A stretch of DNA of 29,277 bases, taken from positions 1 through 29,277 of the IMG/VR virus record IMGVR_UViG_3300031773_000026; one strand, 5' to 3'. The notes beneath the pieces are model-generated. The model worked only from the letters and a program-made list of their open reading frames with translations, was not told where the DNA came from and searched no databases. The first letter of the stretch is position 1. Each line of letters opens with the position of its first letter. The translations under genes were made by a program, and so were the position numbers. Below are positions 5,806 through 18,214 of this stretch, one piece after another. This DNA is from a virus.

Positions 5806-5833
5806 TGCCGAAATTTATGAAAGTGTATTATTC

Positions 5834-5844
5834 GCCCGCAGGGC
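5834..5844 (-). repeat. CCGCAGG triloop hairpin upstream of the capsid gene
   Basis: Plus-strand GCCC-GCA-GGGC forms a 4-bp stem with a 3-nt loop, 28 nt upstream of the capsid ATG on the minus strand, inside the 92-nt gap between scaffold and capsid genes. The same core with different, still complementary flanks occurs before the scaffold gene and upstream of TerS. Confidence 0.45.
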
Positions 5845-5897
5845 TACAGTCCGCAGCGCAGCCTTGAAACTGTTACCGACTATCTTAGCGCGTTATC

Positions 5898-6641
5898 TTA
5901 TTTGTTTGCAGAAATTATATCCTTAGCCTTTAACCAAGCGTCACGACCATACCTCTTATAAATATCGTGTTCAACATCATGCTCGCCATTAGCGAGCCTT
6001 TTCATTAGGTCGGAATCAATGCCCGCAGCATTGCCAGAAGCAGAACTTCGACTTGCTGGCGCTCCGCTTCCTTGAGGTGAAGGATCTTTTAATAAATAAT
6101 CGCGCTTATCTTCGACGAGTTTATTTTTAATCCACTCGGTAACGGGTGGTCTGTCGTATCCATCAATAACAACAGGAACGCCATCTTTCATTTCGATCTT
6201 TTCTTTAGGCAAGAAATTATTCAAAACAAGATCAGGATCTCGAACGACTTCAGATAAAGCTTGAACGGCTGGATTGATTAACTCAAGATTTTTAACTTTA
6301 GATTCAAGCTCTTGAATTGCTTCTTTTTGCTTTGCCTCCCTTTCCCTGAATTGTTCCTCCCTTGCCGTTAAGGCTTCGCTATATTTCCCTTTACGCTCCA
6401 GCTCCGCTTGCTCGCTTTGCTGTTTAAAGGTTAATAATTCATTGATGTCGGTTCCTTCAGGTAAACCCGAAAGAGTTTCTTCGACCTTTTTAAACTTCCT
6501 TTTTTCTTCTAGGAGTTCTTTGTTCTTGATGTCGGTTGCATCAATACGACTTTCAAGCTTTTTAACTAAAGCTTGTAAATCTTCGACATTTGTTTGATTT
6601 GAATCGCTCGGCGCAGCTTCGCGATTTTGTTCGTCTGACAT
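5898..6641 (-). CDS. Capsid scaffold protein
   Basis: The 247-aa protein is highly charged and mostly coiled coil: residues about 20-55 and 75-125 are rich in Glu/Lys (LVKKLESRIDATDIKNKELL, FREREAKQKEAIQELESKVK). A C-terminal domain with 'NPAVQALSEVVRDPDLVLNNFLP' spacing follows, then a basic, Gly/Ser-containing tail ending in YGRDAWLKAKDIISANK. Such proteins assemble the procapsid through the C-terminus and leave before DNA packaging. Position immediately upstream of the major capsid gene and downstream of portal/MuF is diagnostic. Closest in type to DUF4355/gp20-like scaffolds. Confidence 0.85.
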   Translation of the reverse strand: MSDEQNREAAPSDSNQTNVEDLQALVKKLESRIDATDIKNKELLEEKRKFKKVEETLSGLPEGTDINELLTFKQQSEQAELERKGKYSEALTAREEQFREREAKQKEAIQELESKVKNLELINPAVQALSEVVRDPDLVLNNFLPKEKIEMKDGVPVVIDGYDRPPVTEWIKNKLVEDKRDYLLKDPSPQGSGAPASRSSASGNAAGIDSDLMKRLANGEHDVEHDIYKRYGRDAWLKAKDIISANK

Positions 6642-12977: not shown

Positions 12978-13745
12978 ATGGCCGACTCGTTTCAATTCTT
13001 ATCTAAGTTGTTGGGAATGACCAACAGCACGAACGAAAATGAAAGCGCAGTTGCAGAAGCAAAACTTGAAGAACAACTTTTAAAGCGCGGAATTACAAAA
13101 GACCAACTTGAAAAAAAAGTTGAGGAAGGGATAGAAGATCCAACATTAAAAGAGGCGATCAATTGGACATGGACAGATGAAAAAGGCCATCAGCATTTTT
13201 CAAGAGTCAAACCACATGAACAAATTATCGTTAGCGCTTGCGTTTATTTCTTCAATGGGAAATTAGTTATCGGACACAGCTACAAAGGAAAATGCTTTGA
13301 CATCTTTGCGACAAAAGGAAACAGAAAACAAATTGATTTGTATTCTGCCTATTTAATCGAAGCATGTGAAAGAGCATTGAAGGAAGAAAGAAAAGGAGTA
13401 CGCGGCGGATTCGATGCAACATTCAATTCAAGCTTCAGAAAGAATTGGGCTTGGAAAATCCAAAGCAGATTGAACAAGATGAAGGAGGCAGAAGAAAAGG
13501 ACGGAAGGCGCGAAGTTAAGCAAGGCAAAAAGATCAACGTCAGAGCGATTCAAGTCCGAGGCAAAAATGAAATCGAACAAACAAAAGCGCTTTCATTAAG
13601 AGATCAAAAATATCCGAAGTTGAGAAAAGGAACAGGGTTCACAATCGGCGGAGCTGGAGCAAATGCAGGAAGACAGGCCGGAGCAAATACAGGATTAGGT
13701 CGTCAGGTATCAGGAAGACAAACACGGAGAATTGCAGGAGCATAA
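12978..13745 (+). CDS. Early protein with DUF2786/DUF7168-like pattern
   Basis: The 255-aa protein has a charged N-terminus (KLEEQLLKRGITKDQLEKKV) and a central domain from about residue 70. There HEQIIVSACVYFFNGKLVIG, an I/D pair after KCFDIFATKGN, AYLIEACERALKEERKG and SSFRKNWAWKIQSRLNKM resemble the helix and 'SFR.g....l...L' pattern of DUF7168/DUF2786 proteins, which are common in phages and of unknown function. The C-terminus (about 215-255) is Gly/Arg/Ala-rich and low complexity, perhaps nucleic-acid binding. It is the first gene after promoter P1. The leader contains GAACCAACCGAAC rather than a Shine-Dalgarno sequence. Family call is tentative. Confidence 0.8.
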   Translation: MADSFQFLSKLLGMTNSTNENESAVAEAKLEEQLLKRGITKDQLEKKVEEGIEDPTLKEAINWTWTDEKGHQHFSRVKPHEQIIVSACVYFFNGKLVIGHSYKGKCFDIFATKGNRKQIDLYSAYLIEACERALKEERKGVRGGFDATFNSSFRKNWAWKIQSRLNKMKEAEEKDGRREVKQGKKINVRAIQVRGKNEIEQTKALSLRDQKYPKLRKGTGFTIGGAGANAGRQAGANTGLGRQVSGRQTRRIAGA

Positions 13746-13758
13746 AAAGGTGATAAGG

Positions 13759-13809
13759 TCAGGGGACGGCCAAGGCTGTCCCTTGTACTTCGTGACAAGG
13801 CTCCCCTGA
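13759..13809 (+). ncRNA. Compact three-way-junction RNA in the 3' UTR
   Basis: In 51 nt, a 7-bp closing stem (TCAGGGG 759-765 with CCCCTGA 803-809, add 13000) encloses two hairpins. They are ACGGC-CAAG-GCTGT (766-779, one G-U pair) and CCTTGT-8nt-ACAAGG (781-800). Only three bases are unpaired at the junction. A further hairpin GTCAAC/GTTGAC follows at 13811-13831. It lies 13 nt after the stop codon of the 255-aa gene and before its terminator. It is not a tRNA: there is no T-loop or anticodon arm pattern. It could be a 3'-UTR-derived small RNA, an exonuclease block or a protein-binding site. Confidence 0.5.
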
Positions 13810-13850
13810 AGTCAACCGGTAAAAAGTTGACAGCCGTAAATCTTTTTTTG

Positions 13851-13877
13851 AAGATCTCCTTGACAGGGGATCTTTTT
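13851..13877 (+). terminator. Intrinsic terminator whose loop is the next -35 box
   Basis: AAGATCTCC (851-859) pairs with GGGGATCTT (866-874, add 13000; one T-G wobble) and is followed by T's. The 6-nt loop is exactly TTGACA, the -35 of promoter P2. Confidence 0.8.
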
Positions 13878-14219: not shown

Positions 14220-14248
14220 TTGACACCTTTTAAAGTTGTTTGTATACT
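14220..14248 (+). promoter_or_regulatory. Early promoter P3 (TTGACA-17-TATACT)
   Basis: -35 at 14220-14225, -10 at 14243-14248, followed by AAAGAA and GTCA starting exactly 7 nt after the -10. The leader carries two GAACCA copies directly before the ATG at 14275. Confidence 0.92.
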
Positions 14249-14274
14249 AAAGAAGTCAACGAACCAAACGAACC

Positions 14275-14517
14275 ATGGACACTTTCTTCAATCGCTTCTT
14301 CGACGAAAAGAACCTAGAAAACAGGATCTACGAAGTAGTAGCCCCACAAGGAACAATGAACCTTATTGAAACCAATATGGTCATTGCAAAAATCAAAACA
14401 ACTCAGGGCGAAGAAGCTCAAAAGATCGAAACCGTTTTAAGAACAATCGATTTCAAAAACGGCAACGTTCACCATTTCTTAAACCACATTGCCCAGGCAA
14501 TGGCGGTTGATTTCTAA
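14275..14517 (+). CDS. Early protein of unknown function (80 aa)
   Basis: This acidic-to-neutral 80-aa protein starts MDTFFNRFFDEKNLENRIYE and ends GNVHHFLNHIAQAMAVDF. I recall similar small proteins in marine phages, but no function. The first codons share a 13-nt identical stretch (ACACTTTCTTCAA) with the gene at 16644, although the proteins differ afterwards. It is the first gene behind promoter P3 and is followed, without terminator, by a five-gene coupled cluster up to 16019. No Shine-Dalgarno sequence is present. Confidence 0.85.
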   Translation: MDTFFNRFFDEKNLENRIYEVVAPQGTMNLIETNMVIAKIKTTQGEEAQKIETVLRTIDFKNGNVHHFLNHIAQAMAVDF

Positions 14518-14536
14518 ACCTACAGGAACCCAAACA

Positions 14537-14668
14537 GTGAAAAACTTTTTTTTCTTTCTATGCGTCGCGGCGGTCTTCTATACCGCCCTTGACGGATCAT
14601 TAACAAACATGACCAAGGCAGATTGTCAGGCCGGAATACAGAAAGCGTGCGCGGAGCTAATCAAATGA
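14537..14668 (+). CDS. Small exported or membrane peptide (43 aa, GTG start)
   Basis: A GTG at 14537 opens 43 codons ending in TGA at 14666-14668. The product has a hydrophobic N-terminus (KNFFFFLCVAAVFYTAL), then a soluble part with two cysteines (DCQAGIQKACAELIK). The layout fits a signal-anchor or lipoprotein-like small protein. I recall comparable Cys-containing phage peptides. It lies 19 nt after the 80-aa gene and its stop overlaps the next ATG (ATGA at 14665), which strongly supports translation. Function unknown. Confidence 0.75.
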   Translation: MKNFFFFLCVAAVFYTALDGSLTNMTKADCQAGIQKACAELIK

Positions 14669-15144
14669 CTCTTTCTAACGACCAACTTAAAAGGCTTTTA
14701 AAACTTGTTTTGGATGCCCGCACCAAAGATGTTAATCGACTTGACGAAGAGCTACTTCAAAAATTAAGCATCGCATTTGTAGAAAGAACAATTGGAAAAG
14801 ATTACGATCAGAAAGAAAGAGAACCTCTGTCGAAAGAGCCTGTTCCAAAAGAACATGACTTCGAATGTATTTGGTCTACAAAAGAAACAGCAAAAAAATT
14901 GCATGTAACGCAATCAGACTTAAGGGCGCTACGTAATGCAAAAGAATTAAAAGAAGGATGGCATTACATGACAGGAAGATGGCCAAGACCTACAGCTATT
15001 TGGTACGACCTAAATCAAACTTGTAACCAGATACATGGAATTAGTTGGGATGATTTCAATAGCCCAAGCTTTGATTTAAAAGCACATACAGAAAGACGAA
15101 CAGCCCAAGCTTTTGAAGCGGCAAGAAGGAGGGCCAAGAAATGA
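14665..15144 (+). CDS. Helix-turn-helix protein of unknown function (159 aa)
   Basis: The start at 14665 (ATGA overlap with the peptide gene) is preferred over an upstream ATG at 14623 that would lie inside that gene. The N-terminal 55 residues are helical and charged. A linker follows, then at about 72-120 IWSTKETAKKLHVTQSDLRA with NAKELKEGWHYM has the layout of an excisionase/MerR-like winged helix. The C-terminus (ERRTAQAFEAARRRAKK) is strongly basic. It probably binds DNA. Context is an early cluster, so a regulator is plausible. Its stop overlaps the next gene's ATG. Confidence 0.8.
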   Translation: MTLSNDQLKRLLKLVLDARTKDVNRLDEELLQKLSIAFVERTIGKDYDQKEREPLSKEPVPKEHDFECIWSTKETAKKLHVTQSDLRALRNAKELKEGWHYMTGRWPRPTAIWYDLNQTCNQIHGISWDDFNSPSFDLKAHTERRTAQAFEAARRRAKK

Positions 15145-15362
15145 CCGTCGAACGATTCGCGCCCGGGACGCTCGTAAGAAAGCGCCCACCCTGTCACCCT
15201 GATTCAACAATTGGAACTGTTATCAAGCGTGAAGTATGGGAGCGCAAACGAAAAGGAAAGCTAGAACCTCAAAAAATTTCTTATTACGAAATTCTTTGGA
15301 GGGGCAAAACGAGAACCGACTGGCTACCTCAACAACGAATTAAAAAAGTCGAAGGAGTTTAA
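15141..15362 (+). CDS. Small SH3-like beta-barrel protein (73 aa)
   Basis: FAPGTLVRKRP, IGTVIKREVWERKRKGK, SYYEILWRGKTRTDWLPQQR and IKKVE form the alternating strand pattern of a small SH3/KOW-like barrel ('pG.lV.......GvV.......Y.V.W..g....'). The protein is very basic. It overlaps the previous gene by 4 bp (ATGA). Such barrels in phages often bind nucleic acid or host polymerase, but no specific role can be given. Confidence 0.8.
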   Translation: MTVERFAPGTLVRKRPPCHPDSTIGTVIKREVWERKRKGKLEPQKISYYEILWRGKTRTDWLPQQRIKKVEGV

Positions 15363-15366
15363 ACCA

Positions 15367-15720
15367 ATGACCCAAAAACAAGAACAAGACCAAATCAGGG
15401 CAATTAATCAAATTTGCTCGTTGATTGTTGGCGGTCGCGATGCTCGCGATACCGACATAATGAAGGATCGACCGTTACAAAGAGTTGAGAAATGTTTAGA
15501 GCTGGCTTCGCGTGAACAAGCCGAAACGGCTTCTGACCCAAACAATGACGCCGAAAAGTTTAGGAAGATTAAGCAAGTTTCAAGGAAGATTGACGCGCTA
15601 GGATCTTTACTCGTCTTGGCAAAACTTGTTGAGGAGCAAATGCAAGACCGCGCAGCCATCGCGGAAAATGCTTTTTTCCATGACGAATATTACGAACAAA
15701 CTGAAAAATTCAAACTATGA
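15367..15720 (+). CDS. Helical early protein of unknown function (117 aa)
   Basis: The 117-aa protein is predicted almost all-helical, with heptad-like Leu/Ile spacing (QIRAINQICSLIVGG, LQRVEKCLELASREQ, RKIDALGSLLVLAKLVEEQM). No recognised motif. It begins 4 nt after the previous stop and ends in an ATGA overlap with the next gene. Confidence 0.8.
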   Translation: MTQKQEQDQIRAINQICSLIVGGRDARDTDIMKDRPLQRVEKCLELASREQAETASDPNNDAEKFRKIKQVSRKIDALGSLLVLAKLVEEQMQDRAAIAENAFFHDEYYEQTEKFKL

Positions 15721-16019
15721 GAAAAGTCGATCGCCGTCGAACCAAAAAAGAAGACCCAACACGAACCCAATCCTTTAGAGACCGAATGAACAAACCCGCA
15801 ATTCTTGGCCCCGGATTATTATCTGGCGACGGAAGTTTTGAAGTGGATTTTTATCCCTATAAAAATTTAAGCGATCATTTCGTAAAGATCGTTCGCTTTC
15901 AAAATAGGACTGAATTTCGAGTTACGGTTAAGGCTCCGACGATGAGGGCAGAAGTTAAAAGACGACTCGAACATGAAGGCTTTAAACATATTCGGGACAA
16001 TAGACACCCGATCAGTTGA
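15717..16019 (+). CDS. Basic early protein of unknown function (100 aa)
   Basis: The N-terminus is very basic (MRKVDRRRTKKEDPTRTQSF), followed by a beta-rich part (SGDGSFEVDFYPYKNLS, FVKIVRFQNRTEFRVTV) and a final helix. No family recognised. Its TGA stop is embedded in the -35 box (TTGACA) of promoter P4, so gene end and next promoter overlap. Confidence 0.78.
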   Translation: MRKVDRRRTKKEDPTRTQSFRDRMNKPAILGPGLLSGDGSFEVDFYPYKNLSDHFVKIVRFQNRTEFRVTVKAPTMRAEVKRRLEHEGFKHIRDNRHPIS

Positions 16020-16044
16020 CAAGTTTATTTGGCGTTTGTATACT
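16016..16044 (+). promoter_or_regulatory. Early promoter P4 (TTGACA-17-TATACT)
   Basis: -35 at 16016-16021, -10 at 16039-16044, followed by AAGGAAGTCA and the leader ACGAACCAC before the ATG at 16071. Confidence 0.92.
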
Positions 16045-16070
16045 AAGGAAGTCAATTACACGAACCACAA

Positions 16071-16403
16071 ATGACAATTCTTCAACCTCTTGAATTTGTT
16101 CCCGGCCAAATCTGCATGATGAAGTGGGGCGCGACAATGACTCTTGTTGACTTCTATCAAGTAACACGCAGGACAGCCAAAACTGTATGGTTTAAAAAAG
16201 TTCCAAGCGTTGTTCATTCTCACGACGGTTACGGACAAGCAGGGAAAAAACTTCCTGACTTGAAAACCGAAAAGAGAGGACCAGAGTTCAGAAAGAAAAT
16301 CAAGATTGATCGTTATGATGGCGGAGAACAAGCGTGGGAAGAATACAAAGGTTTTATTGAACCTTGGAACAACCAACCAATTGCCTTCGACACATACGAC
16401 TAA
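16071..16403 (+). CDS. Conserved phage protein with 'DFYQV..RTAKTV' motif (110 aa)
   Basis: The segment MTLVDFYQVTRRTAKTVWFK at about 22-43 matches a widespread small phage family ('..qtnvdFyqV.k.t..tV.lr.i') of unknown function, followed by a basic strand region with FRKKIKIDRYD. An antisense ORF over the same bases is a shadow: the plus frame has its own promoter, leader and terminator. Confidence 0.85.
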   Translation: MTILQPLEFVPGQICMMKWGATMTLVDFYQVTRRTAKTVWFKKVPSVVHSHDGYGQAGKKLPDLKTEKRGPEFRKKIKIDRYDGGEQAWEEYKGFIEPWNNQPIAFDTYD

Positions 16404-16426
16404 AGAGCCATAAGGCTCTTTTTTTT
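16403..16426 (+). terminator. Intrinsic terminator after the 110-aa gene
   Basis: AAGAGCC-ATAA-GGCTCTT followed by T's; starts at the stop codon. The T run overlaps the -35 (TTGCAA) of promoter P5. Confidence 0.92.
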
Positions 16427-16453
16427 GCAATAAATTATTCCTGCATGTATACT
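16425..16453 (+). promoter_or_regulatory. Early promoter P5 (TTGCAA-17-TATACT) driving a probable ncRNA
   Basis: -35 TTGCAA at 16425-16430 and -10 TATACT at 16448-16453, followed by AAAGAA and GTCA at 16460, as in the coding units. Confidence 0.85.
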
Positions 16454-16459
16454 AAAGAA

Positions 16460-16583
16460 GTCAGGCGGAACGACATGAGGCCCGCCGCTTTTGCCACCTC
16501 AAACCCGAACGAAGGTGGGCGCGGGTTAGCCGCGGCGAGTTAACTAACCGGACTGGTCCCACGATACGGGACCATTTTTTTTT
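16460..16583 (+). ncRNA. Candidate phage small RNA (about 124 nt)
   Basis: Between promoter P5 and a strong terminator there is a clearly GC-rich stretch unlike the AT-rich surroundings. It can form four successive hairpins: GGCGG/CCGCC (464-468/482-486), CCACC/GGTGG (494-498/514-518), GGTTAG/CTAACC (524-529/544-549) and the terminator (554-574); add 16000. The predicted 5' end is the same GTCA as in the mRNAs. The only ORF is 22 codons (ATG 16475 to TAA 16543) and lacks the GAACCA leader, so a coding role is less likely but not excluded. No known RNA family recognised. Confidence 0.6.
16554..16583 (+). terminator. Intrinsic terminator of the candidate small RNA
   Basis: TGGTCCC-ACGATAC-GGGACCA (7 bp) followed by nine T's. 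Confidence 0.93.
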
Positions 16584-16589
16584 AATTAG

Positions 16590-16618
16590 TTGACACCCTG
16601 CAAGATAATATGTATACT
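16590..16618 (+). promoter_or_regulatory. Early promoter P6 (TTGACA-17-TATACT)
   Basis: -35 at 16590-16595, -10 at 16613-16618, then AAAGGAGTCA and leader CAAACGAACCACA before the ATG at 16644. Confidence 0.92.
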
Positions 16619-16643
16619 AAAGGAGTCAGTCAAACGAACCACA

Positions 16644-16913
16644 ATGAACACTTTCTTCAACCTCAACAAGCCAAGAGCAAAGAAAGCGTGTTGGATCATC
16701 CTTAACGCAGTCGAAGCAGCAAAAGGAACAAAGGGCATCGACCGCAACTACATGATCCAAACCTTCAAAGCTTTCGGATATGTTCAGCACTTAGCAGAAA
16801 GAGCAACAACCGCGTTGATCGAAGCAAACACCGACATCAACCACTGGAGCCGCTGGCAATCAAACACAACAGAAGATGGAAACGTTTTCTACCTACCTTG
16901 CAGCCTCGGCTAA
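16644..16913 (+). CDS. Early protein of unknown function (89 aa)
   Basis: The start is ATG 16644, since the longer frame from 16590 runs through the promoter. The protein starts MNTFFNLNKPRAKKACWIIL and contains KGTKGIDRNYMIQTFKAFGY, a helix pair of winged-helix type, and an N-terminal basic patch. It may bind DNA, but no family is recognised. It is monocistronic: own promoter, GAACCAC leader, terminator 13 nt after the stop. Its 5' coding end resembles that of the gene at 14275. Confidence 0.85.
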   Translation: MNTFFNLNKPRAKKACWIILNAVEAAKGTKGIDRNYMIQTFKAFGYVQHLAERATTALIEANTDINHWSRWQSNTTEDGNVFYLPCSLG

Positions 16914-16925
16914 CTAAAACAAACC

Positions 16926-16949
16926 AGACCCACAAGGGTCTTTTTTTTT
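16926..16949 (+). terminator. Intrinsic terminator after the 89-aa gene
   Basis: AGACCC-ACAA-GGGTCT followed by T's, 5 nt before the next -35. Confidence 0.9.
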
Positions 16950-16954
16950 GCTTG

Positions 16955-16983
16955 TTGACAAGTTCTAAATTTATATGTATACT
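16955..16983 (+). promoter_or_regulatory. Early promoter P7 (TTGACA-17-TATACT)
   Basis: -35 at 16955-16960, -10 at 16978-16983, then AAAAGAGTCA and leader ACGAACCACA before ATG 17009. Confidence 0.92.
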
Positions 16984-17008
16984 AAAAGAGTCAATCACAC
17001 GAACCACA

Positions 17009-17260
17009 ATGGAAATCACAAAGCCTTCTGAAACAATCACCGGATACACATTTCAGATTTCAGCAAAGCAAAATCTTTGCGTTGTAGTTAGCAAAGGCGA
17101 GTTTCCAAATTGCACCGTTACAGTCAAAACAATAGGCGGTCGTAATCTTCCATTCGGAAAAGTTTTCCACGGCGCGGACTGCTTACTTCAAGCGCTTGAT
17201 TCTTACAAAAGAGCAGCGGTTAAAAAAGGAATCCGTCAAGTGATTTCCGACATAAGCTAA
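17009..17260 (+). CDS. Early protein of unknown function (83 aa)
   Basis: The start is ATG 17009 because upstream codons in frame lie in the promoter. The protein is beta-rich at the N-terminus (TITGYTFQISAKQNLCVVVS, TVTVKTIGGRNLPFGKVFHG) and ends in a helix (LLQALDSYKRAAVKKGI), a small alpha/beta fold. No family recognised. It is a complete promoter-leader-gene-terminator unit; the terminator stem begins in its stop codon. Confidence 0.83.
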   Translation: MEITKPSETITGYTFQISAKQNLCVVVSKGEFPNCTVTVKTIGGRNLPFGKVFHGADCLLQALDSYKRAAVKKGIRQVISDIS

Positions 17261-17283
17261 GGGCCAAATGGCCCTTTTTTTTT
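17260..17283 (+). terminator. Intrinsic terminator after the 83-aa gene
   Basis: AGGGCC-AAAT-GGCCCT followed by nine T's. Confidence 0.93.
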
Positions 17284-17857: not shown

Positions 17858-17898
17858 TTGTTACGGCTAACTTCATTAGTATACTTTTAATGTATATT
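17858..17898 (+). promoter_or_regulatory. Promoter region of the second candidate ncRNA
   Basis: TTGTTA (17858-17863), 16 bp, TATACT (17880-17885) gives one promoter. A second hexamer context TGTATATTAAGGACATC (from 17891) resembles the conserved TGTATACTAAAGAAGTC of the other units but lacks a good -35. Either could start transcription. Confidence 0.6.
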
Positions 17899-17899
17899 A

Positions 17900-18070
17900 A
17901 GGACATCTCGGAGCGAGACACAAAGACCTCCAAGTTTCAACCGCCATTTACTGAACTTCGATCAGATAGGCTCCGCTAGTCGGATAAGTTACTAGGGCCG
18001 ATGACCAACCTCAAACCGTCGCCTAACAAGTTAGAGTTTTAAAAAAGCCTCCTTAACCGGGGGCTTTTTT
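17900..18070 (+). ncRNA. Candidate second small RNA (about 165-170 nt)
   Basis: No ORF longer than 13 codons with a sensible start is present between the promoter and the terminator at 18041-18070. Possible helices are TCTCG-GAG-CGAGA (17906-17918), AACTT/AAGTT enclosing the central part, CTAGT/ACTAG, and CTAAC-AA-GTTAG just before the terminator. The CTAGT/ACTAG and AACTT/AAGTT pairings would interlock, suggesting a pseudoknot or alternative folds. The exact 5' end is uncertain. No family recognised. The 3' end is antisense to the last few codons of the convergent small gene. Confidence 0.5.
18041..18070. terminator. Bidirectional intrinsic terminator
   Basis: AAAAAAGCCTCC-TTAACC-GGGGGCTTTTTT: 12 bp including one T-G pair, A-tract one side and T-tract the other. 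It works for the plus-strand RNA and is well placed for the minus-strand gene, whose stop codon lies in the loop. Confidence 0.9.
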
Positions 18071-18214
18071 AATGCAAGAACAAATTTTTTTCTGTCGGAT
18101 TAATTCATTATAAAGCCGATCACTTCTCTCAATTGCCTCGGCGGCAATTAAGAACGGATCGGCATGGCTCTCGAATAATTGAGCGCGAATTTGTAAAGCC
18201 TTAGACGTTGGCAT
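18053..18214 (-). CDS. Small protein with its own minus-strand promoter (53 aa)
   Basis: The start chosen is ATG 18214-18212; a longer frame to 18271 would translate the C9 tract. The product is helical (SKALQIRAQLFESHADPFLI, AAEAIERSDRLYNELIRQKK) with two cysteines near a basic C-terminus. It is the only minus-strand gene in the early block and is driven by the promoter at 18303-18332. Being divergent from the replication genes, it is placed like a regulator. Function unknown. Confidence 0.65.
   Translation of the reverse strand: MPTSKALQIRAQLFESHADPFLIAAEAIERSDRLYNELIRQKKICSCIKKAPG

Follow-up and report, generated by a model that had tools for sequence, protein, structure and literature searches.

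A putative noncoding small RNA unit in an exchangeable cassette slot of marine cyanosiphoviruses

The DNA analysed here, 29,277 bases in length and referred to as the window, is a virus record from IMG/VR and, by its sequence, a fragment of a marine cyanosiphovirus genome. It carries genes for a tape measure protein, a major head protein, a portal protein and a terminase, and its nearest relatives are marine cyanosiphoviruses, the terminase showing 58% identity to KBS-S-2A, S-H1 and MED4-184/P-HS2 and the capsid protein 57-68% identity to the same relatives. To the right of the terminase gene, which points leftward, small genes follow one another in rightward orientation, and many of them share one design: TTGACA-N16/17-TATACTAA..AAGTCA, followed by a leader ending in GAACCA(CA)ATG, an ORF and a terminator. 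The majority of these motif units, in the window as well as in related phages, encode proteins, in line with a first-pass annotation that had placed the unit described below among coding units of like design. In the region 14220-17280, single-gene cassettes, each with its own promoter and terminator, are gained, lost and swapped among close relatives; the gene at 16071-16403, for instance, is replaced in the related contig L013. The coding units in 16030-17011 and in the same region of the relatives L013, L077 and L078 have the leader GAACCACAATG directly before the start codon in common and show no evident Shine-Dalgarno sequence. Further to the left, no gene is evident at 13746-13860, between the end of an ORF at 13745 and a promoter at 13860; this stretch is 95-100% identical in relatives and may have a regulatory role or encode another RNA.

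The unit of interest occupies positions 16425-16583 on the plus strand and opens with a sigma70-type promoter (16425-16453), in which the -35 element TTGCAA (16425-16430) and the -10 element TATACT (16448-16453) are separated by a 17-nt spacer. Around the -10 element, the sequence reads TGTATACTAAAGAAGTCA (16446-16463), with the GTCA start at 16460. When the window was scanned for the motif TGTATACTAANNAAGTCA with at most two mismatches, nine sites were obtained, compared to 0.01 expected, and 16446-16463 was among them; the promoter is thus a statistically real member of the series. Its -35 element is degenerate and weaker than the TTGACA of most neighbouring units, and the claim that the promoter equals that of its neighbours holds for the motif, including the -10 element, but not for the -35 element. 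The unit ends in an intrinsic terminator (16554-16583), composed of a 7-bp stem (16554-16560/16568-16574) and nine T's (16575-16583). Both this terminator and the GTCA start agree with the first-pass annotation. Apart from the weak -35 element, the unit has the own promoter and intrinsic terminator that are found in the class of independently transcribed phage sRNAs, and the predicted noncoding RNA, with GTCA as its start and the T-tract as its end, would span about 124 nt (16460-16583).

The interior of this unit had been described as GC-rich, which is correct: the GC content of the core is 63% compared to 42% for the window, a value reached by only 37 of 29,185 segments of core size, most of which belong to the locus itself. 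Of the four consecutive hairpins claimed, three are robust, with pair probabilities mostly between 0.6 and 0.97, namely hairpin 1 (GGCGG/CCGCC, 16464-16486), hairpin 2 (CCACCT/AGGTGG, 16494-16518) and hairpin 3 (CGCGG/CCGCG, 16520-16534) of the predicted fold, whereas the fourth is weak and missing from the centroid structure. The fold as a whole is not more stable than that of dinucleotide shuffles, with z-scores of -1.0 and +0.5 with and without the terminator, respectively. After the fact, we spotted a candidate H-type pseudoknot in the core, which remains a possible structure predicted by pairing. Its two stems are perfect and 6 bp long: stem 1 is the stem of hairpin 2 (16494-16499/16513-16518), and stem 2 (16502-16527) pairs AACCCG (16502-16507) with CGGGTT (16522-16527) in competition with hairpin 3. 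A comparable pseudoknot was present in 28 of 5000 shuffles (0.6%).

A search with the downstream protein yielded the contig L013 (IMGVR_UViG_3300030376_004596), in which the unit is found at the corresponding place (5818-5940) with 118 of 123 positions identical. Three of the five differences fall within the hairpin 1 loop, in which an ATG is changed to ACA, and the other two are in the terminator, where they jointly turn a T-A pair into a C-G pair and are hence compensatory. All hairpins remain intact despite these differences, and the 79 nt following the lost ATG (16478-16556) are identical. Covariation between the two copies is limited to the compensatory pair in the terminator, as the pairs in the body are invariant; the pseudoknot stems are also unchanged and hence uninformative in this regard. 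Over 16 genes, 12.6% of the four-fold sites differ between the window and L013. In the two genes that follow the unit, however, only 2 of 72 four-fold sites differ, and a neighbouring gene is 98.9% identical with none of 33 four-fold sites changed. Since these genes are nearly identical too, the unit's divergence of 4% is no evidence of purifying selection.

The other two relatives differ at this place. The promoter stretch TTGCAATAAATTATTCCT, which is identical in the window, L013 and L077, and a closely similar terminator enclose an unrelated interior in L077, while L078 lacks the unit at the corresponding place. Because of this differing interior and this absence, the locus is, on comparison of these genomes, an exchangeable cassette slot that is not reserved for an RNA throughout the group. 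The L077 interior contains a 43-codon ORF, MGVLADTLRESLRQLAQSDARRLRELDQILKESRSIDEPARTK (L077:2558-2689), without a match to any family, whose product is possibly a small helical protein.

Wider searches produced no further copies. Neither the 300 cyanobacterial genomes nor the 50,697 phage records that were searched yielded a credible homologue, DNA searches of phages and plasmids returned chance matches only, two core pieces used as exact patterns against IMG/VR retrieved the L013 contig plus chance matches (unrelated contigs sharing a short word only), and a scan of GTDB contigs with one core piece retrieved nothing. Both searches proposed in the first-pass annotation were run. The Rfam 15 scan gave no credible match to any family, neither with curated nor with permissive thresholds. 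The covariance model, applied to 0.55 Mb of related phages, recovered only the two known copies; weak scores were also obtained for L077 and L003, the latter match being a protein gene with a terminator. ARAGORN found no match to a tRNA or tmRNA. We also rejected a host origin of the unit, for which 16 and 300 cyanobacterial genomes gave weak short matches only. The best of these matches, antisense to a host prenyltransferase-like gene, is at the level expected by chance for 300 genomes and is not put forward as an interaction; it lies at about position 1501-1539 in four cyanobacterial genomes (L172-L175). Pairing of the core with start regions of phage genes revealed no significant target and was no better than that of the shuffled core.

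The unit could encode a micro-protein instead of an RNA, or be the decayed remnant of a small gene, with translation in the window phage of its best plus-strand ORF, the 22-codon MRPAAFATSNPNEGGRGLAAAS (16475-16543), and loss of the start in L013. Of the other motif units in these phages, most are protein-coding, the slot in L077 contains an ORF within the shared promoter and terminator, and in the window the ATG is preceded by GAACGACATG, a near-match to the neighbours' leader, and lies 15 nt past the start of GTCA, not far from the roughly 19-20 nt that leaders of coding units measure. The claim that the unit lacks a GAACCA leader therefore does not wholly hold for the window copy, but it does for L013, the only homologue, where leader and ATG are both lost and no ORF of at least 8 codons starts in this frame. 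Comparison of the two copies thus leaves no conserved coding frame in the unit. Moreover, the 22-aa peptide has no match in PHROGs and no similarity to the L077 ORF. The earlier judgement that there is no convincing ORF is upheld: as L013 has ACA in place of its start codon, the 22-codon ORF is probably not a gene, and we regard translation of the unit as unlikely. The same low likelihood is assigned to a non-functional spacer, in which a former gene was replaced or lost and leftover promoter and terminator sequences sustain weak transcription. The degenerate -35 element in all copies, the swapped interior in L077, the missing slot in L078 and a fold stability like that of shuffles would be in agreement with a spacer, but for a compact phage genome rich in AT the GC content is extreme, the change in the terminator is compensatory, and the interior was kept alike in two distinct phage contigs.

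The position of the unit directly upstream of the gene at 16644-16913, both in the window and in L013, raises the question of an action in cis, as an attenuator or terminator-controlled leader of this gene without a free sRNA. This is very improbable, given that the gene has a full promoter of its own (TTGACA-N17-TATACT, 16590-16618) and that L077 retains the promoter-terminator frame in front of a different gene. Least credible is a product of the other strand, either from a 33-codon GTG frame or as an antisense transcript from a promoter-like site at 16633-16605. Both the site and, in either copy, the frame exist, but no start signal was seen and GC-rich sequence yields such frames by chance, while the site overlaps the palindromic TATAC of the plus-strand promoter and its -10 element is altered from TATTAT to TATTAA in L013.

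We favour a noncoding RNA because the hairpins survive all five differences, because one pair of these is compensatory, and because the start of the ORF is lost. With a probability of about 0.62, the unit would be an accessory, independently transcribed gene for a noncoding sRNA acting in trans. A dedicated RNA gene of about 124 nt, as first proposed, is accordingly the best reading of a unit that keeps its promoter and terminator but no ORF, although its stability is not above chance and the slot carries an ORF in L077. The sRNA is a plausible new phage RNA, represented in two virus genomes.

A second promoter-terminator unit without a conserved ORF is located at 17858-18072. It shows 7 and 5 substitutions in 178 nt in L077 and L078, respectively (96-97% identity), where four-fold divergence amounts to 13.9% and 16.9%, and its 29-codon frame is shortened or altered in both. 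The unit is absent from L013, and a pattern scan retrieved only known relatives and chance matches. By this comparison, it is a stronger noncoding-RNA candidate than the unit at 16425-16583, and since its conservation far exceeds that of four-fold sites, the phage group seems to carry noncoding RNAs. The word ACCTCAAACC, which the two units share, was dropped from consideration as it is not conserved in the homologues of the second unit.

Moron cassettes of temperate phages are insertions of one gene each, equipped with a promoter and terminator of its own, and they vary among close relatives. The unit at 16425-16583 resembles them in these respects, but its cargo is apparently an RNA and it has many neighbours of like design. 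As a kind, phage sRNAs are already known, and the unit adds one candidate to them. Phage-encoded trans-acting sRNAs include c4 of P1/P7, sar of P22, AgvB, IsrK and others, and for c4, pairing by way of its loops has been proposed (PMC12197685). In common with these, the candidate is a short phage RNA with hairpins and no clear ORF; unlike them, it has no sequence or Rfam match and is situated among the accessory cassettes of a marine cyanosiphovirus rather than in an immunity or virulence locus. The noncoding RNAs described from cyanophages, i.e. CfrI (S-PM2), PhotoRC-II, wcaG, manA, glnA and abiF, are cis-antisense RNAs, 5'-leaders or Rfam-defined families, mostly of T4-like myoviruses (PMC9964418, PMC2864571, PMC12197685). 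The candidate would likewise be a noncoding RNA of a marine cyanophage, but matches no Rfam family.

We propose that the unit functions as an accessory, moron-like gene whose product is a noncoding RNA and which lies in a variable region of the cyanosiphovirus genome, in which many of the small genes come with a promoter and a terminator of their own. The host RNA polymerase would transcribe it during infection, and the RNA would adopt either the fold with three GC-rich hairpins or that of a compact pseudoknot, and would act in trans. If it is an sRNA, its most likely mode, put forward tentatively, may be base-pairing with or sponging of a host or phage RNA via the single-stranded CAAACCCGAACGA loop; next in order, the compact fold might bind or decoy a protein. 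It is a speculative and rather improbable extension that the unit represents a new family of pseudoknotted cyanophage sRNAs in an exchangeable slot, where a fixed promoter-terminator frame takes up RNA or small-protein cargo acting on the host during infection. If this reading is confirmed, a free-standing sRNA would be encoded by a cyanosiphovirus in the form of an exchangeable cassette, and would provide an accessible case for the use of RNA by marine phages against their hosts.
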